A stretch of 64,000 nucleotides of DNA from Acidovorax sp. NCPPB 3576 (GTDB taxonomy: Bacteria > Pseudomonadota > Gammaproteobacteria > Burkholderiales > Burkholderiaceae_C), in the NCBI RefSeq assembly GCF_028473605.1, contig NZ_CP097267.1, positions 2,596,501 through 2,660,500 on the forward strand, in the 5' to 3' direction. The notes under the pieces are model-generated. The model saw only the letters and a list, made by a program, of their open reading frames with translations, made no database searches and was not told the DNA's origin. Position numbers and translations under genes: made by a program. Of this stretch, positions 97 to 61,800 are shown one piece after another; within the stretch, counting starts at the first letter, position 1; each line of letters starts with the position of its first letter.

Positions 97-1482
97 AGTC
101 CCCAAGCCCTCCACCTGCGCGCGCAACATCTGCGCCACCGCCAGCGCCGTCGCCAACGCCGCCCCCCGGTGCGCCCCGGTAAACGCCACCGCCCTGCCCT
201 GCGCCTCCACGAGCCTCGGCCCATTCCCCACCAGCGCCTCGGCCGCCGCGACCCCCTCGGCCATGTCCGCCACCCGCAGCGCCGCCCCCGCTTCGCACGC
301 CAGCCGCGCCGCCTCGGCAAAGTTGAACGTGTGCGGCCCCGTCACCACCGGGCAGCCGCAGGCCGCCGCCTCGATCAGGTTTTGCCCGCCCAGCGGCGCG
401 TAGCTGCCGCCCAGCAGGGCCGCGTGCGAGAGGCCGTAGTACAGCGCCATCTCGCCCAGCGAGTCGCCCAGCCACACATCAGCGGCGCCGGGCGCCGCGC
501 CCCAGGTGCTGCGGGGCGAGACGGTCAGGCCGGCGGCTTCGATCAGTTCCCGCACCTGGGCGAAGCGCTGGGGGTGGCGTGGCACCACCAGCCATTGCAC
601 GGGCAGGCCGGCTGCCGATGCCGCTACCGCTGCGCCGGATACTCCTGAATTGATAGCAACATGCCCTAGTGGAATATGCGCTGGAGGCCGTTTTGACTGC
701 AAGGCCTCCAGCCACATCGCTTCTTCTCCTTCGCGGCTGCTGGCCAGCAGGACCACGCGGCGGCCGGCGGCGTCGCGCCATTCGCGGCCCTGCGCCAGTT
801 GGGCGGCATCAGGCACGACGTCGAACTTGAGATTGCCGAACACGCCCTGCACGCGGGCGCCAGCAGCGCGCAGGCGTTCGGCGTCGGCGTCGGTCTGGGC
901 CCAGGCGGCAGCCAGGCCTGCGTAGGCGGGGCGGGACAGCCACGACAGCCGGCGCGCCCCGGCAAGCGATTGGGCGTTCAGCCGGGCGTTGGCCAGCACC
1001 ACGGGAATGCCGCGCTGGCGGCAGCCGGCCAGCAGGTTGGGCCAGATCTCGGTTTCCATGAGGATGCCGATCTCGGGGCGGAACTGCTGCAGAAAGCGCC
1101 GCACCGCGCCGGGCGTGTCCCACGGCTGCCAGACCTGCACATCGCCGGGCTGAAGCAGTTTTTCGCCCTCGGCGCGGCCGGTGGCGGTGCCATGGGTGAG
1201 CAGCAGGCGCATGCCGGGCAGCAACTGGCGCAGCTCGGCCAGCAGGATGGCCGCGGCCCGGGTCTCGCCCAGCGAGACGGCATGCACCCAGACGAAGGGG
1301 TTGCCCAGGCCGGTGGTGCTGATGGGCCCCAGGCTGTCCATCGCCTGCGGGTAGTGGCCGAAGCGTTCTTCCACGGCCACGCCGTAGCCGGGCTCGGTGG
1401 CGGCGCGGCGGCGCAGCTTGGCGCGCAGCAGCGGCTGGGCCAGCCAGGTGATGGCCGAGTACAGGGCGCGGGCGGGGGTCAC
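67..1482 (-). CDS. waaA: 3-deoxy-D-manno-octulosonic acid (Kdo) transferase
   Basis: A 471-residue GT30 family enzyme that adds Kdo from CMP-Kdo to lipid A precursor at the inner membrane. An N-terminal hydrophobic stretch precedes the acceptor-side motif WVHAVSLGETRAA, whose Glu (about residue 73) is the expected catalytic base. Further family blocks are GILMETEIWPNL, VVPRHPQRF and the C-terminal GGSYAPLGGQNLIEAAACG. The GTG start was chosen because GTGA overlaps the stop of the upstream nitrilase-like gene by 4 bp, which suggests translational coupling; the frame stays open further upstream but that part looks non-coding. Oddity: residues about 260-278, between EGEEAMWLEAL and the VVPRHPQRF block, are encoded by a copy of a dispersed palindromic repeat; E. 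coli WaaA has no equivalent segment as far as I recall. Confidence 0.93.
   Translation of the reverse strand: MTPARALYSAITWLAQPLLRAKLRRRAATEPGYGVAVEERFGHYPQAMDSLGPISTTGLGNPFVWVHAVSLGETRAAAILLAELRQLLPGMRLLLTHGTATGRAEGEKLLQPGDVQVWQPWDTPGAVRRFLQQFRPEIGILMETEIWPNLLAGCRQRGIPVVLANARLNAQSLAGARRLSWLSRPAYAGLAAAWAQTDADAERLRAAGARVQGVFGNLKFDVVPDAAQLAQGREWRDAAGRRVVLLASSREGEEAMWLEALQSKRPPAHIPLGHVAINSGVSGAAVAASAAGLPVQWLVVPRHPQRFAQVRELIEAAGLTVSPRSTWGAAPGAADVWLGDSLGEMALYYGLSHAALLGGSYAPLGGQNLIEAAACGCPVVTGPHTFNFAEAARLACEAGAALRVADMAEGVAAAEALVGNGPRLVEAQGRAVAFTGAHRGAALATALAVAQMLRAQVEGLGTSVNQVRQAP
651..697 (+). repeat. Dispersed palindromic repeat, copy 1 (inside waaA)
   Basis: Contains the family core ATGCCCTAGT followed by ATGCGCTGGAGG and a T-run ending TTTTGAC, preceded by a half stem GATAGCAAC. 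It lies antisense to waaA but in frame, adding about 16 residues including LGHVAINS to the enzyme. Other copies are at 5521, 11288, 29708, 59752 and 61489, with a weak one at 50952. Confidence 0.8.
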
Positions 1483-2366
1483 TGCCCTGCCACGCCCGCG
1501 GTGCCGGGCCGGCCGGGTTGGGTGTGGAGCACGCGGCCCCGCCACCCGTCGTCGCCGTTGCGCTCCGCGATGACCAGGCAGGTGCCCGTGCCCGGGGCGG
1601 CCACCACGCACGCGCCGCCCGGCGCCCAGAAGGCGCTGCGGCCCGCGCAGGCGTAGCCGCCGGTGGGCGCGCCGTGGTTGGCCAGCAGCACGGCCATGCC
1701 CCACTCGGTGGCGTAGCCCTGCAGCTGCGCGGTCTCGCGCGCATGGGCGCCTTCGGAGATCACCGAGCCGCAGGCGTACAGGGCCGCACCGCCCCCGCGT
1801 GCGGCGCGGGCGTGTTTAGGGTGCGTGGTGTCGGCGCACACGGCCAGCGCGGTGGGTTGGCCGGCCAGGGGCCGCACATGGAAATCCTCGGTGCCCGGGC
1901 TGGCGAAGGTGTTTTCGCCGGGGTGCAGGTGGCGCTTGCGGTACAGGGCGGCGCGGCCATCGGGCTCGAACACCCAGGCGCCGATGGCCGGCAGGCCGCC
2001 CGGCACGGCGGGCGCCACGGGCGCGCCGACCACCACGGCCATGCCGTGGGCGCGGGCGGCCTCGCGCAGCGGCGCCAGCACGGCATCGTCCGCGCCGAGC
2101 ACATGGCGGGCCGCCAGCTCGAGCTCATAGCCCGTGAGCGACAGCTCGGGGAAGACGAGCAGTTGCACGCCTTCAAGGGCCGCGGCCTGCACCATGGCCA
2201 GGTGCGCCTGCACGTTGGCCGGTACATCGCCGGGGAGGGAGATCGACTGCGCCGCGGCCACGGTGTACAGCGGTGGGAACGCGCGGGGATTCAAGGGCGG
2301 GTGGTCCGTGAAGCGGGCGGTGGATGGCGGGCGGTTGCTGGCCAAGCGATCAGTGGGCCGCGGCAC
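1479..2366 (-). CDS. Carbon-nitrogen hydrolase (nitrilase superfamily)
   Basis: A 295-residue nitrilase-superfamily protein. All three catalytic residues are visible: Glu74 in FPELSLTGYE, Lys144 in YRKRHLHPGE and Cys177 in AVCADTTHPK. The family hydrolyses non-peptide C-N bonds in amides, nitriles or carbamoyl compounds; the substrate cannot be read from the sequence. The fold seems to begin near residue 33 (YTVAAAQS), so the first 30 residues, rich in Pro and Arg, may be a mis-assigned start; the ATG used overlaps the end of the phosphohexomutase gene by 17 bp. At its 3' end it overlaps waaA by 4 bp. Its place between two lipopolysaccharide-type genes is co-transcription evidence only, not proof of an envelope role. 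Confidence 0.85.
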   Translation of the reverse strand: MPRPTDRLASNRPPSTARFTDHPPLNPRAFPPLYTVAAAQSISLPGDVPANVQAHLAMVQAAALEGVQLLVFPELSLTGYELELAARHVLGADDAVLAPLREAARAHGMAVVVGAPVAPAVPGGLPAIGAWVFEPDGRAALYRKRHLHPGENTFASPGTEDFHVRPLAGQPTALAVCADTTHPKHARAARGGGAALYACGSVISEGAHARETAQLQGYATEWGMAVLLANHGAPTGGYACAGRSAFWAPGGACVVAAPGTGTCLVIAERNGDDGWRGRVLHTQPGRPGTAGVAGQ

Positions 2367-3738: not shown

Positions 3739-3977
3739 AGGGGGTTCCTTCGCGGTTCGGGAGAAATCGCGGGGCGCGGCGGGCGCATGGTGCGCTGCGG
3801 CGCCCCTTCTCGTTGGACGGGGTCGCGGCATTGTAGGCGCGGGGTCGGGCGCCGCCGGGGCCGCGGCGCGTAGGCCGGCGCCGCATCTTCGGCCGCGCCG
3901 GGCGCGTCGCCGGCGCGTCAGGCACATGTCCGGAAACGGCCAGCGCTGCCCTATCGCCGGCCTATGATGGCCCTCCA

Positions 3978-5522
3978 ATGACTACCCCCCGCCCTGCCCT
4001 GGCCACCGACGCCGACGATGCACGCTACCGGGCGATGGCGGCGCGGGATGCACGCTTCGACGGGCGGTTCTTCACCGGCGTGACCTCCACCGGCATCTAC
4101 TGCCGGCCGGTGTGCGCGGTGCGAACGCCGCGGCGCGAGAACTGCCGTTTCTTCGCGCTGGCCGCCCAGGCCGAGAGCGCGGGTTTTCGGCCCTGCCTGC
4201 GCTGCCGGCCCGAACTGGCGCCGCGCGCGCTGGCCTGGTCGGTGCAAGATGCGCCCGACATCCTGGTGCGCGAGGCGCTGCGCCTGCTGGAGGGCGAAGG
4301 CGCCTGGGAGGCCGCGGCCACCGGCCCGTCCCCCCTGCAGCGCCTGGCCGCCCGGCTGGGCGTGAGCGACCGGCACCTGCGCCGCATCTTCGAGACGGCC
4401 CTGGGCGTGTCGCCCCTGCAATACCTGCAGACGCGCCGCCTGCTGGCCGCCAAGCAGTTGCTGACCGACACCGACCTGCCCGTCACGCAGGTGGCGCTGG
4501 CCAGCGGCTTCGGCAGCGTGCGCCGCTTCAACGCGGCGTTTGCCGGGCACTACGGGCTCAATCCCACGCAGTTGCGCAAGACCGGCGCCGGCGCGGCGGC
4601 GGGTGGCGCCAGCAGCACGGTGCGCCTGGCCTACCGGCCGCCGCTGGACGTGCCGGCCCTGCTGGCGTTTTTCGCCAAGCGGCAGATCCATGCGGTGGAG
4701 TCGGTGTCCACCGAGGGCGAGCAGGCCCTGCGCCGCACGGTGCGGCTGGTGGTGGGCGGGCAGGTGCATGCCGGCTGGCTGAGCGCCCGGTTCGACCCCG
4801 ACCGCCCCCAGGTGCTGCTGCAGACCAGCGACAACCTGCACCCGGTGCTGCCGATGGTGATCGCGCGGGTGCGCGCCCTGCTCGACCTGGACGCCGACCC
4901 GCAGGCCATCAACGCCGTGCTGCACGGGGCCTTCCCCGAGGGCGACGGGCTGCGCGTGCCCGGCGCGTTCGACGGGTTCGAGCTGGCGGTGCGCGCCGTG
5001 CTGGGCCAGCAGATCACGGTGGCTGCCGCCCGCACGCTGGCGCAGCGGCTGATGGAGCGCTTCGGCGAGCCCATCGGCACGCCCTGGCCCGCGCTGACGC
5101 GGCTGTTCCCCTCGCCCGCGGTGCTGGCGGGCGCAGCGGGCGATGCGCTGGGCCAGCTGGGCATCGTGCGCCAGCGGCAGGCCGCCATCGTGGCGCTGGC
5201 GCAGGCGGTGGACAGCGGGCGCCTGGCGCTGCACGGCGCGGCCGATGTGACGGCCACCACGGCGGCGCTGTGCGAGCTGCCGGGCATCGGCGACTGGACG
5301 GCGCAGTACATCGCCATGCGCGCGCTGCGCTGGCCCGATGCGTTTCCGGCGGGCGACGTGGCGCTGCACAAGGCCCTCGGGGTGCAGGGCGAGCGGCGCG
5401 CGGCCCAGGCGGCCACGGTGGCGTCGCAGGCCTGGCGGCCGTGGCGCAGCTATGCGGTGATCCGCGCGTGGACGCTGGGCGGGGCCGTGGCACCCACGGC
5501 ACCCGAACCGCCCTCACTATAA
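3978..5522 (+). CDS. AdaA-AlkA fusion: DNA methylphosphotriester acceptor, regulator and 3-methyladenine glycosylase
   Basis: A 514-residue fusion. The Ada zinc domain has Cys42, Cys46, Cys73 and Cys76, with the spacing of E. coli Ada Cys38/42/69/72; Cys42 is the expected methyl acceptor. An AraC-type helix-turn-helix pair follows (about 100-190, with RLGVSDRHLRRIF and VALASGFGSVRRFN). The rest is AlkA-like: a TATA-box-like N domain, then HhH-GPD with LPGIGDWTAQYIAMRAL and the likely catalytic Asp460 in FPAGDVAL. By family knowledge it senses methylated phosphotriesters, activates the adaptive response and excises alkylated bases. The methyltransferase half of classical Ada is the separate next gene, 63 bp downstream. 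Divergent from the phosphohexomutase gene across about 240 bp that should hold the promoters. Confidence 0.92.
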   Translation: MTTPRPALATDADDARYRAMAARDARFDGRFFTGVTSTGIYCRPVCAVRTPRRENCRFFALAAQAESAGFRPCLRCRPELAPRALAWSVQDAPDILVREALRLLEGEGAWEAAATGPSPLQRLAARLGVSDRHLRRIFETALGVSPLQYLQTRRLLAAKQLLTDTDLPVTQVALASGFGSVRRFNAAFAGHYGLNPTQLRKTGAGAAAGGASSTVRLAYRPPLDVPALLAFFAKRQIHAVESVSTEGEQALRRTVRLVVGGQVHAGWLSARFDPDRPQVLLQTSDNLHPVLPMVIARVRALLDLDADPQAINAVLHGAFPEGDGLRVPGAFDGFELAVRAVLGQQITVAAARTLAQRLMERFGEPIGTPWPALTRLFPSPAVLAGAAGDALGQLGIVRQRQAAIVALAQAVDSGRLALHGAADVTATTAALCELPGIGDWTAQYIAMRALRWPDAFPAGDVALHKALGVQGERRAAQAATVASQAWRPWRSYAVIRAWTLGGAVAPTAPEPPSL

Positions 5523-5574
5523 AAACAATAGCAATGTGCCGGCGTTTCGATTGCGCTGGAGCCCTTTTTTATTG
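5521..5574 (+). repeat. Dispersed palindromic repeat, copy 2 (intergenic)
   Basis: Starts in the stop codon of the AdaA-AlkA gene and fills the gap before the methyltransferase gene. It has AATAGCAATGTGCC, then ATTGCGCTGGAG and a T-rich end, so it keeps the second half of the family core but has lost CCCTAGT. It lies between two genes that are probably co-transcribed. Confidence 0.65.
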
Positions 5575-11287: not shown

Positions 11288-11349
11288 GTGTCAAAAAGGC
11301 CTCCATCGCAATATCCACTAGGGCATATTGCTATACAAATAATAGCAAA
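11288..11349 (-). repeat. Dispersed palindromic repeat, copy 3 (intergenic, most complete)
   Basis: Read on the minus strand it has a stem TTTGCTAT...ATAGCAATA, the core ATGCCCTAGT, then ATTGCGATGGAGG and a T-run ending TTTTTGAC. It is the best reference copy for the family because it is free of coding constraint. Confidence 0.8.
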
Positions 11350-29670: not shown

Positions 29671-29707
29671 AGGCACTGTCCAATCCTTTTAATTCATGGA
29701 ATCAGAG

Positions 29708-29770
29708 TGTTTTAGCCTTCACGCCCTAGATAATCATGCGGTGGCAGCTATTAAATTAATAGCAAAACAC
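29708..29770 (-). repeat. Dispersed palindromic repeat, copy 4 (intergenic, diverged)
   Basis: Read on the minus strand: GTGTTTTGCTATTAATTTAA then TAGCTGCC, and later TCTAGGGCGTGAAGGCTAAAAC. The GCTATTAATTTAATAGC part forms a strong hairpin. It sits between the SNF2 gene and the EVE gene and shares stem and tail with the other copies, but its middle differs. Confidence 0.5.
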
Positions 29771-29825
29771 CGTCTGGACGCGCGGGCGACCCCATCCATG
29801 TGCGGCACCCGGCCAAAATGGCGCC

Positions 29826-30305
29826 ATGACGACGACCCCGCCCCGCGAACCCCGGTACTGGCTCATGAAGTCCGAGCCACAGGAATGCTCCATCGACGAC
29901 GCCCTGGCCGCCCCGGGCGCCACCGTGCCCTGGACCGGCGTGCGCAACTACCAGGCGCGCAATTTCATGCGCGACGGCATGCAGGTGGGCGACGGCGTGC
30001 TTTTCTACCATTCCAGTTGCCCCGCGCCAGGCGTCGCCGGGCTGGCGCGCGTGGCCTCCGCCACCCGGCCGGACCCGACGCAGTTCGATCCCGAATCGCC
30101 GTACCACGACCCCAAATCCAGCCCGGACCAACCGCGATGGCTGCTGCTGGATGTGCAGGCGCTGCGCAAGACCCGGCTGCTGTCCCTGGCCGAGCTGCGC
30201 GCCCGCCCCGAGTTGGCCGGCCTGCAGGTGCTGCAAAAAGGCAGCCGCCTGTCCATCACGCCCGTGGAGGCCGCAGATTGGGAGCGGGTGGTGGGCTTGC
30301 TTTAG
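29826..30305 (+). CDS. EVE domain protein
   Basis: A 159-residue single-domain protein of the EVE (PUA-like) family. It opens with RYWLMKSEPQECSIDD and has WTGVRNYQARNFMRDGMQVGD, VLFYHSSCPAPGVAGLARV and PRWLLLDVQAL, which line the pocket that in related proteins recognises modified bases in DNA or RNA. Length is standard for the bacterial THYN1-like branch. In other bacteria EVE proteins occur with restriction and modified-base systems; here the neighbours are a SNF2 gene and a lipase-like gene, and the type I restriction operon lies 21 kb away. Confidence 0.92.
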   Translation: MTTTPPREPRYWLMKSEPQECSIDDALAAPGATVPWTGVRNYQARNFMRDGMQVGDGVLFYHSSCPAPGVAGLARVASATRPDPTQFDPESPYHDPKSSPDQPRWLLLDVQALRKTRLLSLAELRARPELAGLQVLQKGSRLSITPVEAADWERVVGLL

Positions 30306-30325
30306 GCCGCCTCCTGCCGGTGGCC

Positions 30326-31189
30326 TCAATCGTCGTCGCGCAGGTGCCTGGCCAAAAAAGCCGCAATGCGCGTTTCATAGGCGGCTGAATCGAACGCGTG
30401 CAGATCGACATGCGCCGCGCCGTCCACCACCCACAACTCTTTCGGGTCGTCTGCCGCCGCGTAGATGCGCCGGGTTTCCGCCAACGGCGTGTGGCGGTCT
30501 TCCGATCCCGCGGCGATCAGCAGCGGCGTGTTCAGCGAGGGCATTTCGGCGATGGGCCGCAGTTGGTCCGCGGAAATGTCCAGCCACACCGGAAGCTGCC
30601 ACAGCAGCAGCGGCGTGAACCACCGGCCGACCGGCCCCAGATGAAGGGCCAGGCGGTCGGACACAGCGTCTTCGAGCGTTGGAAACATCGACTCCAGCAC
30701 CACGGCGCTCAAGGAGACATCGGCCCGCGAAAGCACCAGCGAGGCGGCTCCCAGCGAGACGCCGATCACGCCGATCTTTTCGTCGGGCAGCGCATCGGAC
30801 AGGTAGTCCAGCGCCGCTGCAACGCCCTGCGCTTCGTTCCAGCCGAAGGTCACGCGGTCCCCGGCGCTCTCGCCATGGGCGGGCAGATCGATCAGCAGCA
30901 CGGAATAGCCCAGGCGATGCAGGAACCGGGCCCGGCCCAGCATCTGCCGGCGGTCCGCGCTGATGCCATGCAGCAGCAGGACGGCCCCGGCGCCGGCATC
31001 GCCACGCACCATCCAGCCCGAGATCGACTGGCCCATGAGGGTGTCGAACTGGACGCGGCTGGCTGGCAGATCCACGGGAGCCGGGCCGATCGATCGATGG
31101 TGGGGGCGGCTCAGCATTTCACCTGCACCGTACAAGACAGCCAGGCATGCAAAGGCAGCAGCCAATGCCGCAAGGATTCGACGTTTCAT
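30326..31189 (-). CDS. Alpha/beta hydrolase, membrane-anchored or exported
   Basis: A 287-residue alpha/beta hydrolase. An N-terminal hydrophobic helix (AALAAAFACLAVLYGAG) acts as anchor or signal. The oxyanion segment is LLLHGISADRR, the nucleophile elbow is GVSLGA, the acid is probably Asp in AGSEDRHTP and the His is in DGAAHVDLHAF. The set resembles BAAT/FrsA-like serine hydrolases that act outside the cytoplasm on unknown esters. The ATG was placed before KRRILAAL, directly ahead of the helix. It is convergent with the EVE gene, 20 bp away. Confidence 0.88.
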   Translation of the reverse strand: MKRRILAALAAAFACLAVLYGAGEMLSRPHHRSIGPAPVDLPASRVQFDTLMGQSISGWMVRGDAGAGAVLLLHGISADRRQMLGRARFLHRLGYSVLLIDLPAHGESAGDRVTFGWNEAQGVAAALDYLSDALPDEKIGVIGVSLGAASLVLSRADVSLSAVVLESMFPTLEDAVSDRLALHLGPVGRWFTPLLLWQLPVWLDISADQLRPIAEMPSLNTPLLIAAGSEDRHTPLAETRRIYAAADDPKELWVVDGAAHVDLHAFDSAAYETRIAAFLARHLRDDD

Positions 31190-42072: not shown

Positions 42073-42076
42073 CGCC

Positions 42077-50816: not shown

Positions 50817-50914
50817 GGGAAATGTCTCCGTTGTGGTGGTCTTGCACGTCCGCGCGCGCAGCTCACAGGCGCAGATGGATGGGTGATCATAGGGGGCCAG
50901 CGCATCCCAAAAGT

Positions 50915-50950
50915 AAAAAAGCCGCGCAGCCCTTACGGTATCTGCGCGGC
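50915..50950 (-). terminator. Intrinsic terminator, minus strand
   Basis: GCCGCGCAG (50921-50929) pairs with CTGCGCGGC (50942-50950) over a 12-base loop, and on the minus strand a T6 run follows (50915-50920). It terminates transcripts coming from hsdR. Because the DNA between it and hsdR contains an lpdA 3'-end copy, it may be the original lpdA terminator. Confidence 0.85.
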
Positions 50951-50951
50951 C

Positions 50952-50986
50952 AGCTACTGATTCGGTAGCAACCTAGATAGAGGGTT
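50952..50986 (+). repeat. Possible diverged copy of the dispersed repeat
   Basis: AGCTACTGATTCGGTAGCAA matches the stem of the aceF copy (GCTACTGATTTAGTAGC), and CCTAG follows, but the rest of the core is lost. Confidence 0.4.
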
Positions 50987-50992
50987 TGCTCG

Positions 50993-51053
50993 CTTCTTCA
51001 GCGGCGGCCCGGCCGTGAAGCTGCCATGCGCCATCTCCACCGCCATGCCGATG
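50993..51053 (-). pseudogene. Remnant of an lpdA 3' end
   Basis: 51 of 61 positions match the 3' end of intact lpdA (58245-58305) without a gap. Read on the minus strand it gives IGMAVEMAHGSFTAGPPLKK against IGMAAEIAHGSCTDVPPQKK in LpdA. Several differences are synonymous, so it derives from a coding copy that diverged. A small open frame (50954-51073, 39 residues) includes it, starting 12 bp after the hsdR stop. It lies on the far side of the hsd operon from intact lpdA and in the same orientation, as expected for a displaced gene end. Confidence 0.8.
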
Positions 51054-51085
51054 AGCCGCACCGCCTCTGACATCAATCTCTAACA

Positions 51086-54000
51086 TCAATAGTTTTTGGC
51101 CTGCCCCTGCACCAGCAGATCAAACACAATCCGCGCAAAGTTTGCCGCTTTGCCTGGGTCGGCCAGCAACTGCATCATCTGGTTCTGGTGGGCTTCGCTG
51201 CTGTCCATGATGGCGTCGTCTATCGCCTTGGAGAAGTCGCCCAGCAGGGCCTGTTCGGGCGAGTTGTTCTCGATCTGCTTCATCACCTTGGCGTTCTCGC
51301 CCACCTTGTCGCGGATGGTGTAGGCGTAGTTCACCATGTCTTTGTCGGTGAGCTGGTCGGTCACAAACACATCGTTCAGGCGGTGGATGATCTGCGACAG
51401 AAACTCTTCCTTCTGCTCCTGCGGCTTGGCCGTGCCCAGGCCTTCGCCGGGCTCCAGCTTGTACTCCGCGCTGTTTTCTTTCAGCACCAGATCCTGCTGG
51501 CGTATCTTGGCCACGCGGTAGTGGCTCAGCACCACGTTGCCCAGGTCAATGTCGTCTTCGTCCAGCAAAGTTTCGCGCAGCATGGGCCGCAGGTTGCGGG
51601 CGTACAGGCTCAGCTTTTCCAGGTCGGTGTCGTCGTAATCCACGATCTGCGACATGAACTCGTAAAACCGTACAAAGGTGCCCAGGTCTTTCTTGAAGAT
51701 TTCCAGCGCGTCCTTTGCCTTCTGGCATTCCTTCAGGCTTTTCTCGGCGTTCGCAATCAGCACGGCATCGCCCGTCTTCTGGGTGCGCTCAAACATCTCC
51801 TTGGCGATCTTGAAGGCCTCTACCGCCGACTTGTAGCGCAGCTGCCAGCGCTGCACCGCAGGCTTGCAGATATTCGCAATCGCCGCGTTACTCTTGTTCT
51901 TCACATAAAACGCCGCGCAGAACTGCTCCACCTCCTGCCAGGTAAAAATGCCCCCTGCCCGCAGCTTGTCCTGCAGCACAAAAATCAGGTTCGGGTCTGA
52001 CACATCCAGCAGCTCCGCCGTCTGGTAGTAGGGCTGAAACGCCGCCAAAATCTCGTCCGGCTCGTTGAAGAAGTCCAGCACAAAGGTGCCCGTCTCGGCC
52101 TTGTTCGGGTAGGTGCGGTTCAGGCGCGACAGGGTTTGCACGCACTCCACCCCGGCCAGTTTCTTGTCCACATACATGGCGCACAGCTTGGGCTGGTCAA
52201 ACCCGGTCTGGAATTTGTTGGCAACGATCATCACCTGGTAGTCGTCCGAATCAAAAGCCTTGCGCATGTCGCGGCCCTTGAGGTTCGGGTTCATGTTCGT
52301 CTCGGTGAATTTATCGCCCGCCGTGGTCTGGCCCGCCGCAGCCGGGTCTTTGTCGGTGAACTCCACCTCGCCCGAAAACGCCACCATGGCGTGAATCTTC
52401 TGGTAGCCAGGTTTTTCGCCTTGGTCCGCGATGTACTTGTCAAAGCACTGCTTGTAGCGCACCGCCTCCTTGCGCGAGCTGGTCACCACCATGGCCTTGG
52501 CCTGCCCGCCCAGCAAGCCCATCACGTTGCTTTTGAAGTGCTCCACAATCACCATCACCTTCTGGGCAATGTTGTGGTCGTGCAGGCGCACCCATTGGTT
52601 CAGCTTCACCTTGGCGCGCTTGCTTTCCACCTCTGCGTCAGCGTCCTGCACCTTCAGGGCCAGCTTGTAGGCCACTTTGTAGTTGGTGTAGTTCTTCAGC
52701 ACGTCGAGGATGAAGCCCTCCTCAATCGCCTGGCGCATGCTGTACACGTGGAAGGCCGCTGGCTTGTTGGTGCTTGACGCTACCTCGTCCGGGCGCGGCA
52801 CGCGGCCAAACAGCTCCAGCGTCTTGGCCTTGGGCGTGGCGGTAAAGGCAAAGTAGCTCAGGTTGCCCGATGCGCGCCGCGCCGCCACCGTGGCGGCAAT
52901 GATGTCGTCGCCATCGAGTTCTTCACCCTCCTCCCCGGCCTCCTTCATCAGCACCTCTTTGAGCTGCCGCGCCGTCGAGCCGCTTTGCGACGAGTGCGCC
53001 TCATCGGCAATGATGGCGTAACAGCGGTCTTTCAGACTCACGCTGTTTTCAATCGCCTTCAGCACAAACGGAAAGGTCTGGATGGTGACGATGATGATGG
53101 GCTGGGCAGCCTCCAGGGCGGCGGCCAGCTTTTCAGACTTGGAGCCATCGCCCTCTTTGTTGTTGATGCGCCCCACCACGCCATCGGTGTGCTCAAACTG
53201 GTAGATCGTGTCTTGCAACTGCGCGTCCAGCACCGTGCGGTCGGTCACCACAATCACCGAGTCAAACTGCTTTTTGCCATCGGCCTTGTACAGCGACGAG
53301 AGCTGGTGCGCCACCCAGGCAATCGAGTTCGACTTGCCAGACCCCGCGCTGTGCTGAACCAGGTACTTCTGCCCCGGCCCCTCGCTGCGCGCCGCCGCCA
53401 GCAGCTTGCCCACCACGTCCCACTGGTGGTAGCGCGGGAAGATCAGGCTTTCCTTCTTGTACTTGCGGCCTTCCCAGTCTTCTTTGTCCTCAATCTGCAG
53501 GTGCACAAAGCGGGCCAGGATGTTGAGCAGATTGTCCGGCAGCAGCACCTCGTTCCACAGGTAATCGGTGGCGTAGCGGTTCATGTCCTGCGGCACATCG
53601 TTGCCCGCGCCGCCGTCTGCCGTGCCTTTGTTAAAGGGCAAGAAGTACGTGCCCTCCCCCTCCAGCTTGGTTGCCATGTGCACCTCGTACTGGCTCACCG
53701 CAAAGTGCACCAGCGCACCGCGCTTGAAGGTCAGCAGCGGCTCCGGTTTTTTGGCCACCGGGTCCACGGGCAGGCGCGTGGTTTTGTACTGCCGAACAGC
53801 GCGGTCCACGGCTTGCTTGAACTCACTCTTCAGCTCCAGCGTGGCCACCGGCAGCCCATTGAAGAACAGCACCAGGTCAATGCGCCACGCCTTGGCCTTG
53901 GCACCTGTCTCCGCAAAGCAGGCATCGGTACACCACGGGCTGTACACCAGCTCCGGCACCACGCGCAGTCGGTTTTTGGCATAGCGGGCCAGCGTGTTCG

Positions 54001-54364
54001 GGTTCAGGTCGTGCTCGGGCTTGAACTGGCACAGCGACAAGCGCGCATTGCGGTCGCGCAACTCGTGGCGCAACACGCCCAGCGTGCCAAAGGTGCGGCT
54101 GTCTTTGTGCGTGGCATTCGGGTCGGCCTTGCCTAGTTGCGCGGCAATCAGTTGCAAAAACTTCTGCTCCGCATCCTTGGGGTGGTTGGCGCAAAACTTT
54201 TGCCACTGCGCGTCTTGCGTCTCTTGCACAAAGCCCAGCGCATCCTCGGGGTAAAGGGCCAGCTCACGGTTGTACTTGTCCGGCGAGCCAAGCAACCAGC
54301 CATTTGCCAGCAACTGGCGAATGATGTCGTCTTGAAAGATGCGTTCGGTGGCTGCGTCGCTCAT
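51086..54364 (-). CDS. hsdR: Type I restriction enzyme, R subunit
   Basis: A 1092-residue motor and nuclease. The PD-(D/E)xK nuclease is visible near 161-180 (RIDLVLFFNGLPVATLELKS; Asp163, Glu177, Lys179). Walker A is SAGSGKS (about 339-345) and the DEAH box is ADEAHSS (454-457); the second RecA half contains NKFQTGFDQPKLCAMYVDKKL and LSRLNRTYP. It cleaves DNA at a distance from an unmethylated site in complex with HsdM and HsdS. All motifs look intact. It is 34 bp after hsdS. Base composition is lower in GC than the flanking core genes. Confidence 0.95.
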   Translation of the reverse strand: MSDAATERIFQDDIIRQLLANGWLLGSPDKYNRELALYPEDALGFVQETQDAQWQKFCANHPKDAEQKFLQLIAAQLGKADPNATHKDSRTFGTLGVLRHELRDRNARLSLCQFKPEHDLNPNTLARYAKNRLRVVPELVYSPWCTDACFAETGAKAKAWRIDLVLFFNGLPVATLELKSEFKQAVDRAVRQYKTTRLPVDPVAKKPEPLLTFKRGALVHFAVSQYEVHMATKLEGEGTYFLPFNKGTADGGAGNDVPQDMNRYATDYLWNEVLLPDNLLNILARFVHLQIEDKEDWEGRKYKKESLIFPRYHQWDVVGKLLAAARSEGPGQKYLVQHSAGSGKSNSIAWVAHQLSSLYKADGKKQFDSVIVVTDRTVLDAQLQDTIYQFEHTDGVVGRINNKEGDGSKSEKLAAALEAAQPIIIVTIQTFPFVLKAIENSVSLKDRCYAIIADEAHSSQSGSTARQLKEVLMKEAGEEGEELDGDDIIAATVAARRASGNLSYFAFTATPKAKTLELFGRVPRPDEVASSTNKPAAFHVYSMRQAIEEGFILDVLKNYTNYKVAYKLALKVQDADAEVESKRAKVKLNQWVRLHDHNIAQKVMVIVEHFKSNVMGLLGGQAKAMVVTSSRKEAVRYKQCFDKYIADQGEKPGYQKIHAMVAFSGEVEFTDKDPAAAGQTTAGDKFTETNMNPNLKGRDMRKAFDSDDYQVMIVANKFQTGFDQPKLCAMYVDKKLAGVECVQTLSRLNRTYPNKAETGTFVLDFFNEPDEILAAFQPYYQTAELLDVSDPNLIFVLQDKLRAGGIFTWQEVEQFCAAFYVKNKSNAAIANICKPAVQRWQLRYKSAVEAFKIAKEMFERTQKTGDAVLIANAEKSLKECQKAKDALEIFKKDLGTFVRFYEFMSQIVDYDDTDLEKLSLYARNLRPMLRETLLDEDDIDLGNVVLSHYRVAKIRQQDLVLKENSAEYKLEPGEGLGTAKPQEQKEEFLSQIIHRLNDVFVTDQLTDKDMVNYAYTIRDKVGENAKVMKQIENNSPEQALLGDFSKAIDDAIMDSSEAHQNQMMQLLADPGKAANFARIVFDLLVQGQAKNY

Positions 54365-54398
54365 GGTCGGAGAGGTGGGGCTGTGTGGGTGAAGGCAG

Positions 54399-55760
54399 TC
54401 AGGCAGCGGCTTGCCAGTCGCGCACGTCGATCTTGCCGGTGACGGCGGCGGAGATCAGGGCAGTGCGGCGTTCTTGCATCAATGCAATCGCCTCTTCTGC
54501 TTTTGAAATCAACTCAAGTAACTTGCGTGACTCGCTGCTCACAAAGAAAACTATTTGCTTTTGCTCGTCAACTTTAGGAATTGGAATGACAAAATTCCCA
54601 ATTTGGCTCGGACTTATGTGTGGAACGCTGACACCGGTGGTATCTGGCGTGAAATGGGCGGGGAACATGTTTGAGGACAAAAGCATCAATAGATAGTCCG
54701 CATCCAAATGCTCGCTTGTCTTTATTAATGCAACCCGCTGTAGCAATAGACATGGAAGATCAGACTCCTTAACTTTGGCAACTCGAATTCCTTCGCTAAT
54801 CAAAGGTCTATCCATACCAATGACAATATCGCCTTTCCGCACCACATAAGCATCGAGACCGTCCGATGGCTTACGTTTCCAATACACCACTTCATCCCAT
54901 TTCAGACTGTTTACGCTGACGTTTATTCCGCGAAGAAGTTTTGTATCTTCATCGTTGACTGAAAACCCGGACGACTGAAAAGCGTATCCAGGAAGAATTG
55001 ATATGTGGAACCCGCACTTGCCCACCACCCAATGCGCAGGTACGTCGCCTAGCCGCTCCACGCCGGAGTCTTTCAACGGGGCGTTGGGATTGAGGCCTTT
55101 GGTGACTGCGTGGCTGATGACGGCTTGGCGCTTTTCCTTGAGCAACTCGATCAGCCGCTGCTGCTTCTCGATCAAGGCATCAATCTTCGCCGTTTCGTGG
55201 TCGAGGAAGGCCGCAATGCCCAATTGCTCGCCGAAAGTTGGCATCGCATATTTGAAGTTAACAAAAGTGTCCTGATACAAATGGACAATCGTGCTGCCGG
55301 TCTTGCTGAATTGAACAAAACCATCGAACACATTGGATTGCAGGAGCCAGAAGTAGTACTTTGTCGTGTATTTATTTTCTAACGGCCGTACAACGAACAC
55401 GCCACTATTCAGCGTTGCTTTGCCATTCAAACCACGCACTAAGGCAACTTTGCCAATGGTTCCATCTTTGGTAATCAACAAATCTTCTTCGTTGAGCTGA
55501 ATGTATGGATCTTGCTCATACCGTGCCAGATCGCAGTGGTAACAGTTTTCCCAACGAATTTCCGGGCCACTGAAGTCGGAGCCGGTCACCAAATATGGTC
55601 CTTCATCAGTGAAGTCATCTGATTTGAGTCCGTGCCAACCAACCCGCGCTTTAACATATGACTCGAACTTAACGCGAGTGAGAGCCCAGCCGCCGGGGTA
55701 ACTACCAACCCATTCCACCCCCGACTCTTTGTACTGGGGATAAGGTTTATAGCGGCTCAC
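54399..55760 (-). CDS. hsdS: Type I restriction enzyme, specificity subunit
   Basis: A 453-residue protein with two target-recognition domains (about 1-170 and 225-400) separated by the conserved helical spacer [22 protein letters not shown], and a matching C-terminal helix ([19 protein letters not shown] followed by [13 protein letters not shown]). The GTG start shares GTGA with the hsdM stop. The recognition domains are markedly AT-rich against the rest of the operon, as expected for exchangeable cassettes. The target sequence cannot be predicted. Confidence 0.94.
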
Positions 55761-58081
55761 GAATGCACCTCACGCAGCAGCGCCATGATCTCGGCGCTCA
55801 CGGCGTCCAAATCGGCATCTATCTCTTCCAGTGGCCGTGGCGGCTGGTACTGGTAGAAGTGGCGGTTGAAGGGAATTTCGTAGCCGACAATGCCAATCTC
55901 GCCATCTTTGGCGTCGCGCTTGCTGGCGTCTATCCACGCATCGGGCACATGGGGCTGCACTTCGGCAACGAAGTAGGCTTCGTTGACTTCATTCACGGTG
56001 CGGCTGGGGTCCAGGGCCACGTTTTCAAAATCGCGCAGCTCGCCATCGGCTTGGTATTCGATGACTTCTTTCTTCACCTCGAACAAACCGTAGAGGGGAT
56101 TGGCTTTGCCTTTGTGAACCTTTTTGACCACTTTTTCGGCGGCGGGGTTCTTCCAGCTCACGGCATCGGCGATCTGCTTTTTCTCTTTCGCGTCCAGCGT
56201 AATGCCTGCCTTTTTGCTGGCGGCCTTGATGGCTTCGTCATAGGCATTGAAGTCGTCGTGCTGGGCGCTGCCGATTGCGCTTTGCAGGGCGCGGGCCTTG
56301 AGCAACACGGCCTTTTGTGCCAGCCAGGTGCGGGCGTCGAGCAGGTCTTTGATCTGCTTTTCCTTGAGGCTGGCAAAGTCGTGCTTGAGGTGGGCGCGTA
56401 TTTCTTCGGCGTAGTCGTCAAGCTGGCCGTAGAGGTCACAGTCGGCAGCGTCTTGCCAGTAGGGCTGGCCGTACTCGGCGTAGGCCCACTGCATGGCTGC
56501 ATTCAGCGCGCCAAACTCAAAGCGCAGGCTGGCAATGCGTTCATCGCTGAACTGCCACGACAAGCGCAGTGCCCGCTCAATGGTGATGCGGCGGTAGCCA
56601 AACTCGTGCGTGGCAAAAATTTTGCTGGCAAAGGTTTTGGCGGTTTCGGGCTTGGGGTTAGCGGCTGGGCGACCCCGGTTGCTTTTCGCTTCCGCCTGTT
56701 TGTTGAGCGCCTGCGCTTCGACCACCTCAAATTGGCCAAAGCAACGGGTGATGGTGGCAATGTCGGCCTCATCCATCACATTGCGCTTGCTGCCCAGCGA
56801 TTTGCGCATCTTGCCGCAGAGGTTGGCGCCGTTGATGAGCTGCACCTTGCCTTTGCGCTCGGCTGGCTTTTTGTTCGACAGCACCCACACATAGGTGGCA
56901 ATGCCGGTGTTGTAGAACATGTCGGTGGGCAGCGCGACGATGGCTTCAAGCAGGTCGCTTTCCAAAATATGGCGCCGGATTTCCGATTCCCCCGAGCCTG
57001 CGCCGCCAGTGAACAGCGGCGAGCCGTTGAGGATGATGCCGATGCGCGAGCCACCATTCTTCACATCGCGCAGCTTGCTGATGAGATGCAGCAAAAATAG
57101 CAGCGACCCATCGGACACCCGCGGCAGGCCGGCGCCAAAGCGGCCATCGAAGCCTTTGAGGGTGTGTTCGTTGGTAATGTCGCCCTCGATCTTTTTCCAG
57201 TCCACGCCAAATGGCGGGTTGGAGAGCATGTAGTCGAACTTGCTGGCGTAGAGGTGGTCGTTGGAAAGGGTGTTACCGAGCTTGATGTTGCCGACCTCTT
57301 GCCCCTTGATGAGCATGTCGGCCTTGCAGATGGCGTAGCTCTCTGGGTTGAGCTCCTGGCCAAAGGCGCGCATCACGGCCTGGGGGTTCTGCTCGTGCAC
57401 GTATTCCATGCCCGCCGAGAGAAAACCGCCCGTGCCCGCTGTGGGGTCGTAAATGGTGCGGATGATGCCGGGCTTGGTGAGGGCTTCGTCGTCTTCCATA
57501 AACACCAGCGAGGTGGTGAGGTGAACGATGTCGCGGGGGGTGAAGTGCTCGCCCGCCGTCTCGTTGGAGCTTTCGGCAAATTTGCGGATCAGCTCTTCAA
57601 ACACCAGGCCCATTTCGTAGTTGGACACGGCGTTGGGGTGCAGGTCCATGGTGCGGACCTTTTGCACCACCTTGTAGAGCAGGTTGGCGTCGTTCAGCAG
57701 GCCAATGAATTCAGAAAACTTGAAGTGGTCAAAAATCTCGCGGGCGTCTTTGGAAAAGCACTGGATGTAGCGCTCCAGATTGGCCTTGATGCCCGACTCG
57801 CCCAGGGTACCGAGGTCCATGGGTGAGGTGTTGAAGAAAGCCAGCCCGCCGGAGGCACGCAGGATCAGTTTCTCCTTGGCCTCTTCCGCAATGGCCATCT
57901 TCTCGACCTTGGCTGCTGCGGCCAACACGGCGCGCTTGCTGCCCTCCAGCACACATTCCAAACGGCGCAGCAGCGCAAAGGGCAGGATGACGCGGCCATA
58001 TTGGCTCTGCTTGAAATCGCCGCGCAGTAAATCAGCCAGCGCCCACAGGTCGGCGGCGAGGTTATTGGTTTCTTGGGTCAT
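55757..58081 (-). CDS. hsdM: Type I restriction enzyme, M subunit (N6-adenine methyltransferase)
   Basis: A 774-residue methyltransferase. An N-terminal HsdM domain ([16 protein letters not shown]) precedes SAM motif [12 protein letters not shown] (about 212-222) and motif [11 protein letters not shown] (288-292). At 774 residues it is about 250 longer than E. coli HsdM; the extra part after residue 480 is hydrophilic and ends with [24 protein letters not shown], which occurs in the larger HsdM class. First gene of hsdMSR; about 160 bp downstream of lpdA on the same strand. Confidence 0.94.
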
Positions 58082-58188
58082 TGATTACGAACGAGGCGAA
58101 CGGGGCATTAGGGTTTCAACCAAATGTGAAAAAGTATTGCGCGGGGTTGGGGCGCAATGGGCCAACCCAGGCGCAGGCCTCAAACCAC

Positions 58189-58219
58189 AAAGCCCGAACC
58201 GTTGCCAGTTCGGGCTTTT
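58189..58219. terminator. Intrinsic terminator after lpdA
   Basis: AAAGCCCGAAC pairs with GTTCGGGCTTT over eight bases, with T and A runs on both sides, so it can work in both directions. It ends the aceE-aceF-lpdA transcript 24 bp past the lpdA stop and separates it from hsdM. Confidence 0.88.
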
Positions 58220-58241
58220 ATCTTTCAGCAGTGAGCCTGGC

Positions 58242-60110
58242 TTACTTCTTCTGCGGCGGCACATCCGTGCAGGAGCCGTGCGCGATCTCCGCCGCCATGC
58301 CGATGCTTTCGCCCAGCGTGGGGTGCGGGTGGATCGTCTTGCCGATGTCCACCGCGTCGGCGCCCATCTCGATGGCCAGGGCGATCTCGCCGATCATGTC
58401 GCCCGCATGCGTGCCGACCATGCCGCCGCCCAGGATGCGGCCATGGCCATGGGCCTCGGGCGAATCGTCGAACAGCAGCTTGGTCACGCCTTCGTCGCGG
58501 CCGTTGGCGATGGCGCGGCCGGAGGCGTTCCAGGGGAACAGGCCCTTCTTGACCTTGATGCCTTGCGCCTTGGCCTGGTCTTCCGTGAGGCCCACCCAGG
58601 CCACTTCGGGGTCGGTGTAGGCCACGCTCGGGATCACGCGGGCGTTGAAGGCGGCGGCGGCCAGCTCCTTGTTGCCCTGCAGTTCGCCGGCGATGACTTC
58701 CGCCGCCACATGCGCCTCATGCACCGCCTTGTGCGCCAGCATGGGCTGGCCCACGATGTCGCCGATGGCGAAGATGTGCGGCACGTTGGTGCGCATCTGG
58801 ATGTCCACGTCGATGAAGCCGCGGTCGGTGACGGCCACGCCGGCCTTGTCGGCACCGATCTTCTTGCCGTTGGGCGTGCGGCCCACGGCCTGCAGCACCA
58901 GGTCGTACACCTGGGGTTCGGGGGCCGTGCCGCCCTCTTCCGCTGCGGCGAACGTGACCTTGATGCCTTCGGACGTGGCTTCGGCGCCCACCGTCTTGGT
59001 CTTGAGCATGATGTTGTCGAAGCGCTTGGCGTTCATCTTCTGCCAGATCTTGACGAGGTCGCGGTCGGCGCCCTGCATCAGTCCGTCCATCATCTCGACC
59101 ACATCCAGGCGCGCGCCGAGCGTGCTGTACACGGTGCCCATTTCCAGGCCGATGATGCCGCCGCCCAGGATGAGCATGCGCTTCGGAACCGCCTTGAGTT
59201 CCAGCGCGCCGGTGGAGTCCACCACGCGCGGGTCCTTGGGCATGAACGGCAGGTGCACGGCCTGCGAGCCGGCGGCGATGACGGCGTTCTTGAAGGCGAT
59301 GACCTTCTTGGTGCCCGTCTTCTCCTGGCCCGTGCCGCTGGTCTCCTCGACTTCGAGGTGGTGGGCGCCGACGAACTGGCCCAGGCCACGCACGGTGGTC
59401 ACCTTGCGCATCTTGGCCATGGCGGCCAGGCCGCCGGTCAGCTTGCCGATGACCTTTTCCTTGTGGACGCGCAGCTTGTCGATGTCCAGGCTGGGGTCGC
59501 CATAGCTCACGCCCAGGTCGGCCATGTGGCTGACTTCGTCCATGACGGCGGCCACGTGCAGCAGTGCCTTCGACGGGATGCAGCCCACGTTCAGGCACAC
59601 GCCGCCCAGGGTGGCGTAGCGCTCGACGACGATCACCTTGAGGCCCAGGTCGGCCGCACGGAACGCGGCGCTGTAGCCGCCAGGGCCACCGCCCAGCACG
59701 AGCACATCGCAATCCAGGTCGACCGTGCCGCTGTAGCTGGCCGCTGGAGTGTTTGCTACGCTTTTTGTAGCATCATGCCCTAGTACTGATTGCGCTGGAG
59801 CCTGTTTTGTGTCGGAGGCTGCCGCAGGCGCGGCAGCGGGTGCGGGCGCCGGGGCCGGCGCGCTGGCGGCGTCGGACGCCTCCAGCGTGAGCAGCACGGA
59901 GCCTTCCGCGACCTTGTCGCCGATCTGGACCTTGAGTTCCTTCACCACGCCGGCATGGCTCGACGGGATTTCCATCGAGGCCTTGTCGGATTCCACGGTG
60001 ATGAGGCTCTGCTCGGCCTTGATGGTGTCGCCGGGCTTCACCAGCAACTCGATCACGCCGACTTCGGCGAAGTCGCCGATGTCGGGTACCTTGATGTCGA
60101 TCACTGCCAT
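58242..60110 (-). CDS. lpdA: Dihydrolipoyl dehydrogenase (E3) with N-terminal lipoyl domain
   Basis: A 622-residue E3 component of pyruvate dehydrogenase that reoxidises the lipoyl arm and reduces NAD. Residues 1-78 form a lipoyl domain ([10 protein letters not shown], Lys43), an Ala/Pro linker follows and then the flavoprotein: FAD motif LGGGPGGYSAAF, redox cysteines Cys172 and Cys177 in GVCLNVGCIPSK, NAD motif LGGGIIGLEMG, and the C-terminal base HPHPTLGES. Such lipoyl-E3 fusions occur in betaproteobacteria. The linker carries an in-frame dispersed repeat (residues 100-119). It is 13 bp after aceF. Confidence 0.95.
   Translation of the reverse strand: MAVIDIKVPDIGDFAEVGVIELLVKPGDTIKAEQSLITVESDKASMEIPSSHAGVVKELKVQIGDKVAEGSVLLTLEASDAASAPAPAPAPAAAPAAASDTKQAPAQSVLGHDATKSVANTPAASYSGTVDLDCDVLVLGGGPGGYSAAFRAADLGLKVIVVERYATLGGVCLNVGCIPSKALLHVAAVMDEVSHMADLGVSYGDPSLDIDKLRVHKEKVIGKLTGGLAAMAKMRKVTTVRGLGQFVGAHHLEVEETSGTGQEKTGTKKVIAFKNAVIAAGSQAVHLPFMPKDPRVVDSTGALELKAVPKRMLILGGGIIGLEMGTVYSTLGARLDVVEMMDGLMQGADRDLVKIWQKMNAKRFDNIMLKTKTVGAEATSEGIKVTFAAAEEGGTAPEPQVYDLVLQAVGRTPNGKKIGADKAGVAVTDRGFIDVDIQMRTNVPHIFAIGDIVGQPMLAHKAVHEAHVAAEVIAGELQGNKELAAAAFNARVIPSVAYTDPEVAWVGLTEDQAKAQGIKVKKGLFPWNASGRAIANGRDEGVTKLLFDDSPEAHGHGRILGGGMVGTHAGDMIGEIALAIEMGADAVDIGKTIHPHPTLGESIGMAAEIAHGSCTDVPPQKK
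59752..59813 (+). repeat. Dispersed palindromic repeat, copy 5 (inside lpdA)
   Basis: Stem TGCTACGCTTTTTGTAGCA, core ATGCCCTAGT, ATTGCGCTGGAG and a TTTTG tail, antisense to lpdA but in frame. It encodes TKQAPAQSVLGHDATKSVA in the flexible linker. Confidence 0.88.
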
Positions 60111-60123
60111 AGGGGATGCTCCT

Positions 60124-61800
60124 TTACAGCAGGATGCGGCGGTAGTCCGCCAGCACTTGGCCGAGGTAGGCGTTGAAGCGCGCGGCGCTGGCGCCGTCGA
60201 TCACGCGGTGGTCGTACGACAGCGACAGCGGCAGCACCAGGCGCGGCACGAAGGCCTTGCCGTCCCACACCGGCTTCATCTGGCCCTTGGAGAGGCCGAG
60301 GATGGCCACTTCGGGCGCGTTGATGATGGGCGTGAAGTGCGTGCCGCCGATGCCGCCGAGCGAGCTGATCGACATGCAGCCGCCCTGCATGTCGGCGCTG
60401 CCCAGCTTGCCGTCGCGGGCCTTCTTGGCCAGTTCGCCCATTTCCTGGCTGATCTGGATGATGCCCTTCTTGTCGGCATCTTTCAGCACCGGCACCACGA
60501 GGCCGTTGGGCGTGTCCGCCGCGAAGCCGACGTTGTAGTACTGCTTGTAGACAAGGGTGTCGCCGTCCAGGCTGGTGTTGAACTCAGGGAATTTCTTGAG
60601 CGCGGCCACCACGGCCTTGATGACGAAGGCGAGCATGGTCACCTTGACGCCGGACTTTTCGTTCTCCTTGTTGGTGGAGACGCGGAAGGCTTCCAGTTCG
60701 GTGATGTCGGCCTCGTCGTTGTTGGTGACGTGGGGAATCATCACCCAGTTGCGGTGCAGGTTGGCGCCGCTGATCTTCTTGATGCGCGAGAGGTCCTTGC
60801 GCTCCACGGCGCCGAACTTGGCGAAGTCCACCTTCGGCCACGGCAGCAGATCCAGCCCGGCACTCGAGCCGCCGCCGGCCGAGGGCTTGGCCGCCTGCGC
60901 CTTGGTCTGGGCCGCGCCGCTCATCACCTGCTTGGTGAAGGCCTGCACGTCGTCCTGCGTGATGCGGCCCTTGGGGCCGGAGCCCTTGACCTCGTCCAGC
61001 GGCACGCCGAGTTCGCGGGCGAACTTGCGCACCGAAGGGCTGGCGTGCGGCAGGCCGACGGGCGCAGCGCCCGGGGCATGCGGCGCGGGGGCAGCGGCGG
61101 GCTTGGCACCGGCCTGGGGCGCGGCTTCTTCAGCCGGCACTGGCTTGGCCTCGGCCGGGGCAGGCGCAGCAGCCGCCGCCGGGGCGGCGCCCGCGGCGCC
61201 TTCCATGATCGCCACGAGATCGCCCACGTTGAGCTTGTCGCCGATCTTGACCTTCAGTTCCTTGATCACGCCCGCCGCAGGCGACGGGATTTCCATCGAG
61301 GCCTTGTCGGACTCGACGGTGAACAGCGACTGCTCGGCCTTGACCGTGTCGCCCACCTTGACCAGCAGTTCGATGACCGCCACGTCCTTGAAGTCGCCGA
61401 TGTCGGGCACGTGCACTTCCACGGGGCCCGACGCAGCGGGCGCCGCTGCCGGTGCGGCGGCGGGCGCCTCGGCAGGCGCGGGCGCGGATGCTACTGATTT
61501 AGTAGCGCCATGCCCTAGTGCTGATTGCGCCGGAGCCGGTTTTGACTCAGAGGCTGCCTCGCCAGCGGCCTCGACCACCACGATGACCGAGCCCTGCTTG
61601 ACCTTGTCGCCCACGGCGACCTTCAGTTCTTTCACCACGCCGGCGTGGCTCGACGGGATTTCCATCGAGGCCTTGTCCGATTCCACGGTGATGAGCGATT
61701 GCTCGGCCTTGACCGTGTCGCCGGGCTTGACCAGCAACTCGATCACGCCCACTTCGTCGAAATCCCCGATGTCCGGGACCTGGATATCTACCAATGCCAT
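60124..61800 (-). CDS. aceF: Pyruvate dehydrogenase E2, dihydrolipoyllysine acetyltransferase
   Basis: A 558-residue E2 core subunit. Two lipoyl domains have Lys43 and Lys166 in [10 protein letters not shown] contexts; the peripheral-subunit-binding domain has [20 protein letters not shown], and the catalytic domain ends with [15 protein letters not shown], the HxxxD active site. It passes acetyl groups from E1 to CoA. The first lipoyl domain is almost identical to the one in LpdA, also at DNA level. Residues 86-104 of the first linker come from a dispersed repeat. It lies 19 bp after aceE. Confidence 0.96.
61489..61549 (+). repeat. Dispersed palindromic repeat, copy 6 (inside aceF)
   Basis: Stem TGCTACTGATTTAGTAGC, core ATGCCCTAGT, ATTGCGCCGGAG and tail TTTTGAC, antisense to aceF and in frame. 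It encodes [19 protein letters not shown] between the two lipoyl domains. Confidence 0.88.

Follow-up and report, generated by a model that had tools for sequence, protein, structure and literature searches.

How do genes for several unrelated enzymes of a free-living bacterium come to contain a short palindromic repeat that is open and in frame, and what determines the sequence of the repeat once it is there? The question is raised by a stretch of 64,000 nucleotides from the genome of Acidovorax sp. NCPPB 3576 (contig NZ_CP097267.1, positions 2,596,501 to 2,660,500; this whole stretch is the window below, and short coordinates refer to it), in which the genes waaA, lpdA and aceF each carry a copy of a repeat that we call class A. 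The initial annotation of this DNA likened the repeats to the Rickettsia palindromic elements (RPEs). Comparison of orthologues from related genomes adds a second feature: in waaA, dapE and lpdA the same codon holds a different repeat class in sister lineages, which suggests that repeats are being rewritten inside proteins.

The class A unit is about 61 bp long and consists of a palindrome (GCTAY-N7-RTAGC), a weak second hairpin (GCCCTAGT..GCGCTGG(A)GGC) and, usually, a T-run; alignment of the copies yields the consensus TTTGCTATTAAATTAATAGCnnTATGCCCTAGTGnTGATTGCGCTGGAGGCCnTTTTGACT. In the genome holding the window (G000; 5,414,205 bp, a single contig), the exact core pattern ATGCCCTAGT-N2..6-ATTGCGCTGGAG has 27 matches and the reversed pattern none. 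A covariance model trained on 28 copies finds at least 185 matches, namely the best 150 genome-wide and 35 of lower score (E up to 0.047) sought only in the fetched G000 stretches (2.43 Mb). A separate scoring matrix, applied to the same 2.43 Mb, gives 182-185 class A-like sites and none in the reversed sequence. The copies have a GC content of 33-57%; that of the window is 65.5%. No curated Rfam model matches the window at its gathering score, and a search of open-licence papers found no description of the family. Protein-database searches with the element's peptides in three frames returned 597, 1208 and 1268 candidates, none with E<=10, a result that is uninformative since queries of some 20 residues are probably too short.

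Six copies and a weak seventh had been counted in the window at the outset; four of them are good class A copies and one (5513) is decayed, while that at 29708 belongs to a sister subfamily and that at 50952 is not class A. Three of the good copies lie inside genes, all on the plus strand within genes on the minus strand, and all in antisense phase 1 (A1) with an open frame. The copy at 638..698 (50.7 bits; class A also by the scoring matrix; peptide SKRPPAHIPLGHVAINS) is in waaA, encoding Kdo transferase (70..1482, with the start codon of our choosing; Pfam PF04413 at 37-222), where the orthologue alignment places it after the N domain and ahead of the PRHPQRF motif; the C-terminal part can be aligned to PDB 4bfc from residue 297. 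The copy at 59752..59812 (69.0 bits; peptide TKQAPAQSVLGHDATKS) is in lpdA, which encodes an E3 with an N-terminal lipoyl domain (58242..60110; PF07992, PF02852, PF00364), in the linker following that domain. The third, at 61487..61547 (68.9 bits), is in aceF, encoding an E2 with two lipoyl domains (60124..61800; PF00198, PF00364 twice, PF02817), in the linker joining them; orthologues were compared for both of these copies. Reading the three genes bears out the earlier claim that the repeats add related peptides in frame. The fourth good copy (11289..11349, minus strand, 70.1 bits) occupies a noncoding gap, and the decayed one (5513..5573, plus strand, 30.9 bits) the 3' end of the open reading frame (ORF) 3978-5522.

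Among 17 genomes of the genus, four give 134 to at least 150 matches to the class A model and 13 give 0-5. A second repeat class, class B, is recognized by its middle, TAGCTGCnnGCGC..AGCGCT; this exact pattern occurs in 17 of 40 genomes (six with only 1-2 matches, against 0-1 in the control), most often in G005 (83), G004 (38), G001 (32), G014 (20) and G020 (14), and has no match in the 16 genomes that represent the order's other families. At the waaA codon, compared in 17 genomes, the repeat is class A in four (G000, its sister species G016, G003 and G006), class B in five (G001, weakly, G004, G005, G014 and G020) and degenerate in two (G009 and G011), and the site is empty or eroded in six (G002, G007, G008, G012, G013 and G015). 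In the waaA of G013, CCTGAAAGCATGGCGA retains 15 of the 16 bases of the G004 repeat end CCTGAAAGCATAGCGA, which on this one clear case suggests that an old insertion has eroded; the corresponding stretch is less similar in G012, faint in G007 and G015, and without remnant in G002 and G008. The dapE site, compared in five genomes, is class A in G000, class B in G001 and G005, and empty in G007 and G019. At the lpdA site, scored for 18 of the 80 fetched loci and the window, three of the 19 sequences have class A (G000, Paracidovorax valerianellae and Acidovorax sp. SUPP3334), 14 have class B (13 Acidovorax or Simplicispira loci and a weak Variovorax copy) and two, P. anthurii and P. cattleyae, have no repeat. 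P. valerianellae (94%) and SUPP3334 (93%) also have the closest lpdA loci among named genomes, although records very near that of the window may be left out.

Relatives with empty or eroded sites, which support the likeness to RPEs drawn in the initial annotation, are found for waaA (6/17), dapE (2/5) and lpdA (2/19). The annotation had also held that the same peptides outside the repeat-bearing lineage would speak against its reading; the peptides found there at this codon are indeed related, yet they correspond to the second repeat class of those or related genomes. The simplest account of these alignments would be that a single old family inserted ancestrally into waaA, dapE and lpdA, was kept or worn away by lineage, and shifted jointly in the class A lineage.

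The copies of class A look old and fixed. From the sister species G016 we sampled 82 loci, 56 of them distinct; 47 have both flanks in the G000 stretches and nine were not placed, and all 47 comparable sites hold the element in G000. Open in-gene copies make up four of the 56 (in the ABC ATPase, LpdA, MoeA and patatin genes) and all occupy the positions that they have in G000, and the waaA copy is likewise common to the two species. Over the 47 pairs, core positions differ at 49/1081 (4.5%), intermediate positions at 168/1175 and free positions at 189/611 (31%), compared with 126/1146 (11%) at nearby fourfold sites (core versus fourfold, P=1e-8; core versus free, P=2e-49, a contrast exaggerated by the similarity-based picking of both sides). 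Free positions of these orthologous repeats diverge at about three times the rate of the fourfold sites.

We hypothesize, with an even chance of being right, that class A belongs to an ancient family like the RPEs or the repetitive extragenic palindromic elements (REPs), kept at the level of nucleic acid, tolerated in frame in loops and linkers, and differing by lineage in the manner of dialects. The repeats would have been scattered long ago, perhaps by a Y1 transposase of the REP-associated (RAYT-like) kind. Survival inside a gene would have required an open frame (three of the six usually are), a T-run hairpin not directed at the host gene's own transcript, and a loop or linker to accommodate the Lys/Pro/Ala/Gln-rich peptide. 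The copies would now hardly move, being kept because the nucleic acid is read, either by a putative DNA-binding factor or as a 3'-end or terminator signal, and the in-gene copies would be dragged along, so that protein inserts follow the dialect of the lineage.

To place the copies relative to genes, coding calls were made with a home-made frame model, trained on fetched DNA from three seed genes of the window; tested on 400 windows of 180 nt out of the ORFs used for its training, it put 374 in the right frame. Two of the 185 matches, at stretch ends, were dropped. For the remaining 183, the calls are noncoding on both sides in 29 and on one side in 72, and 46 copies lie between same-strand coding calls without a single open frame. 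Convergent gene pairs hold 19 copies and divergent pairs none, set against 144:99 for neighbouring pairs overall (P=6e-5). A run of at least three consecutive T at positions 52-59 is present in 115 of the best 150 copies. The half-sites GCTAY and RTAGC vary independently, which would be expected if a dimeric protein read them. There is no clear leading-strand bias (plus 47 and minus 31 in the first half of the genome, plus 35 and minus 37 in the second). As to a possible mobilizing enzyme, the sole Y1_Tnp match in G000 is at locus L028 (G000:C1:1025971-1026264, 39 bits); by eye, its flanks show a GCTA..TAGC palindrome before the gene and a stop codon in a degenerate class B-like stretch, and no class A core.

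In a more specific and more doubtful form, which we hold only tentatively, a putative trans-acting factor would read the 61-bp element, and a shift in its preference would rewrite the sites in step, including the inserts of essential enzymes such as WaaA, DapE and LpdA; a code at the level of DNA, not the protein, would then set the inserts.

Several observations weigh against the kept-and-read family. The two repeat classes do not sort cleanly by genome: class A genomes also hold class B (26 exact-pattern matches in G003, 19 in G006, 11 in G000 and 9 in G016), so that by this pattern class B is about equally frequent in two class A and two class B genomes, and by scoring matrix the fetched G000 DNA has 18-43 class B-like sites, depending on threshold, beside its 182-185 class A-like ones (reversed control, none). 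Outside G000, 28 class B loci were available; the counterpart site was located in the fetched G000 DNA for 10, and a switch to class A is seen at just one of them (L288). Of the others, two are still class B there (L284, L285), three are without an element in G000 (L263, L280, L281), one is unclear (L262) and three have another palindrome (L264 and L269, which are one G000 site, and L275). In the lpdA of P. valerianellae and SUPP3334 the core itself has changed, from CTAGGGCAT to GTAGGGGGT. The 4.5% divergence of the core is not far below that of gap-free noncoding flanks (63/879, 7.2%), and the sharing of all 47 sites may owe something to sampling: known G000 copies determined which G000 stretches were used, and good matches which G016 loci, so absences are under-sampled and shared, conserved pairs favoured. 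The frame model, on which the coding calls rest, recognized noncoding sequence in only 338 of 481 test windows. In RsmB, comparison with the E. coli protein (1sqf) reveals no change of length at the repeat, which there is consequently not a simple insertion. Finally, the stems vary without covariation: the variable pair 8-16 of the first palindrome is T-A in 97 of the 150 copies, C-A in 33, T-G in 12, C-G in 5 and other in 3, a change of C to G at position 44 breaks a pair of the second hairpin in 27 copies, and the folding z-scores of eight copies range from -0.02 to -4.38 (-0.51, -1.10, -1.42, -0.02, -3.47, -1.84, -2.02 and -4.38). Selection on RNA structure was rejected as an explanation, the stems being without compensatory changes.

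What else could bring the repeats of a genome, including those inside genes, to one type? In concerted evolution by gene conversion, short-patch exchange would move every site to the genome's current type, and no function would be needed. This possibility, doubtful in our estimate, fits the lineage-specific class at one shared codon in each of waaA, dapE and lpdA, and exchange between copies would account for free positions outpacing fourfold sites. Whatever the position class, orthologous pairs moreover show about half the difference that random copies do (core 0.045 versus 0.079, intermediate 0.143 versus 0.349, free 0.309 versus 0.619). However, the differences in the 47 pairs are nearly binomial within patches rather than all-or-none (for the loop of the second hairpin, variance 1.27 against 1.12 expected), and this spread weakly favours a reader of the element over mutual conversion.

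Alternatively, classes A and B may each have hit the same favoured targets independently in different lineages, which we regard as improbable. Independent insertion would explain the three placed sites where one genome has an element and G000 has none, as well as the presence of class B in class A genomes; it is opposed by the identical codon and phase in three genes, and by the eroded repeat end in the waaA of G013, the one clear case of its kind.

We scored an in-gene copy as open if it had no stop in the repeat and at least 90 nt of open frame before and 60 nt after it; 17 of the 183 placed copies, in 15 gene families, are open and in frame by this definition. Twelve, from 10 families, are in A1: their hosts are WaaA, LpdA, AceF, DapE, RsmB, an ABC transporter ATPase, a sensor kinase, an Lhr-type helicase, an RHS protein and an oxidoreductase of the FAD type (named from NCBIfam matches below cut-off). 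Two are in antisense phase 2 (A2; MoeA and PurL), one in sense phase 0 (S0; a patatin-like protein) and two in sense phase 1 (S1; TrmJ and AroE, both weak matches of 30.7-31 bits). Against solved relatives, the insert of DapE falls in a gap (8 residues at the site and 12 across that stretch, versus 4ppz), as does that of PurL (7 residues, versus 1t3t); MoeA has 36 unaligned residues against 2 in 1fc5, AroE is 5 residues longer at the site than 3o8q, and the repeat site of TrmJ lies inside an unaligned gap. Three RHS-type paralogues (G000:C1:1147569, 1151164 and 3458806) have the repeat at an identical place, and this repeat was probably copied by gene duplication. Two other class A copies, 2.8 kb apart (G000:C1:683723 and 686527), have their near flanks in common, which points to a local duplication.

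The initial annotation had the repeats in one antisense phase only. The copies favour this phase but are not confined to it, as MoeA, PurL, the patatin-like protein, TrmJ and AroE show: orientation and phase follow a strong bias, not a strict rule. In the best 150 copies the frame is open in 124 for sense 0, 81 for antisense 1, 75 for antisense 2 and 2-3 for each remaining frame. From this openness (the null leaves aside the first 11 in-gene copies and uses the other 139), about four of the 15 families would be expected in A1, where 10 are found (P=0.0016); the excess has a component of orientation (antisense in 12 of 15 families, P=0.041) and one of phase (A1 in 10 of the 12 antisense families, P=0.02). 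It persists among the stronger 150 copies alone (A1 in 9 of 11, P=0.0003) and when RsmB and the FAD protein are removed (8 of 13, P=0.0098). A run of four T is absent from all three sense in-gene copies, which fits avoidance of termination, a weak argument because 59 of the 150 copies have runs of three or fewer. In-phase copies with stops at 132500 and 585551 of the genome were considered as broken genes and rejected, both being read as gene junctions; at the former (G000:C1:132500; L061:3309-3369) a gene for a membrane-fusion-type protein, lying upstream of one for an RND-type pump (names assigned by eye), seems to take its stop codon from the repeat.

A peptide that is itself useful, for example as a flexible linker module selected as protein, would suit the single dominant phase and the inserts in linkers or gaps of solved relatives, and is nevertheless very improbable, given that intergenic copies conserve the same bases, that the hosts are unrelated, and that rare codons persist in the window copies (CTA makes up 1.15% of leucine codons, yet CTAGGG is present in the waaA, lpdA and aceF copies). 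Equally hard to credit are plain selfish repeats in neutral decay with conservation as an artefact of detection, for which the choice of both ortholog sides by consensus similarity and the modest divergence of noncoding flanks can be cited, but under which 47 flank-matched sites without a decayed or empty partner, and such unequal core and free divergence in the same copies, would be surprising.

How does this family relate to repeats already described? The hosts of RPEs are obligate intracellular bacteria with small, AT-rich genomes. RPEs themselves are described as about 150 bp long and inserted in frame within unrelated, likely functional genes, where they encode a related peptide (PMC10969869, PMC3733652). 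Class A is likewise palindromic and in frame inside several unrelated open genes, and to that extent the early comparison holds; it differs from RPEs as described in its length of 61 bp, its 5.4-Mb genome, the majority of copies that are not in frame in genes and the differing class at shared sites, and its copies do not have the look of recent spread, all 47 comparable sites being common to the sister species in a sample that is poor in absences. REPs of the GTAG/CGTC types (Opitutus terrae, Rickettsia, Thauera) are reported to lie mostly downstream of genes, with some intragenic copies, the GTAG type being RAYT-linked (PMC3733652); that text names neither Acidovorax, Delftia, Polaromonas nor Comamonadaceae. 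Class A lacks a terminal GTAG or CGTC tag by a single hairpin: the base counts of the 150 copies contain no terminal GTAG beside one, RTAGC being part of the palindrome. The Betaproteobacterial repeat element (BRE) of Bordetella and Comamonadaceae also has some copies inside coding sequences; its copies are 75-91 bp long with a mean GC content of 69% in Bordetella, and often tandem (PMC3110155). Class A shares the intragenic copies and is set apart from that description by its length and lower GC content. The DNA uptake sequences of Neisseriaceae are dispersed motifs of 10-12 bp with lineage-specific dialects, found in genes too and in far more copies; the lineage versions of class A are alike in this, though the unit is 61 bp long and has about 200 copies. 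In-frame palindromic repeats are thus already known, from Rickettsia RPEs and intragenic REPs; what appears to be new is the class A family, together with the genes that host it and the switch of class.

The two remaining palindromes of the window lie outside class A. That at 29708..29768 (minus strand; 21.1 bits, class A model over 29728-29766) stands at or just before the start of ORF 29696-30388 and is of the sister subfamily marked by TAGCTGCCACCGC after the stem, which has four exact matches in 2.43 Mb; the reversed control gives none, or two if one base is left free. That at 50912..50972 (minus strand, 19.2 bits) is a GCTAC..GTAGC palindrome joined to a terminator; its sequence is found directly 3' of lpdA in five relatives, and it is probably the original 3' end of that gene. 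Within 50988-58305, adjoining the present lpdA 3' end, is a type I restriction set, all on the minus strand and below NCBIfam cut-offs (HsdR-like 51086-54364, HsdS-like 54399-55760, HsdM-like 55757-58081); on its flanks, 66 nt of the lpdA end recur as a direct repeat (82%). From this direct repeat the island seems to have been inserted at the lpdA end, with the old terminator now 7 kb off.

With these comparisons, palindromic insertions that are in frame in core enzymes become accessible to dating, comparison and testing in a group that is free-living; the question has stood open ever since the work on Rickettsia RPEs. Variable linkers and loops of Comamonadaceae proteins can derive from repeats. 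If it is true that the repeats inside enzymes track the repeat type of their genome, selection or conversion at the level of DNA would be driving protein sequence, a clear and testable instance of non-adaptive protein change.

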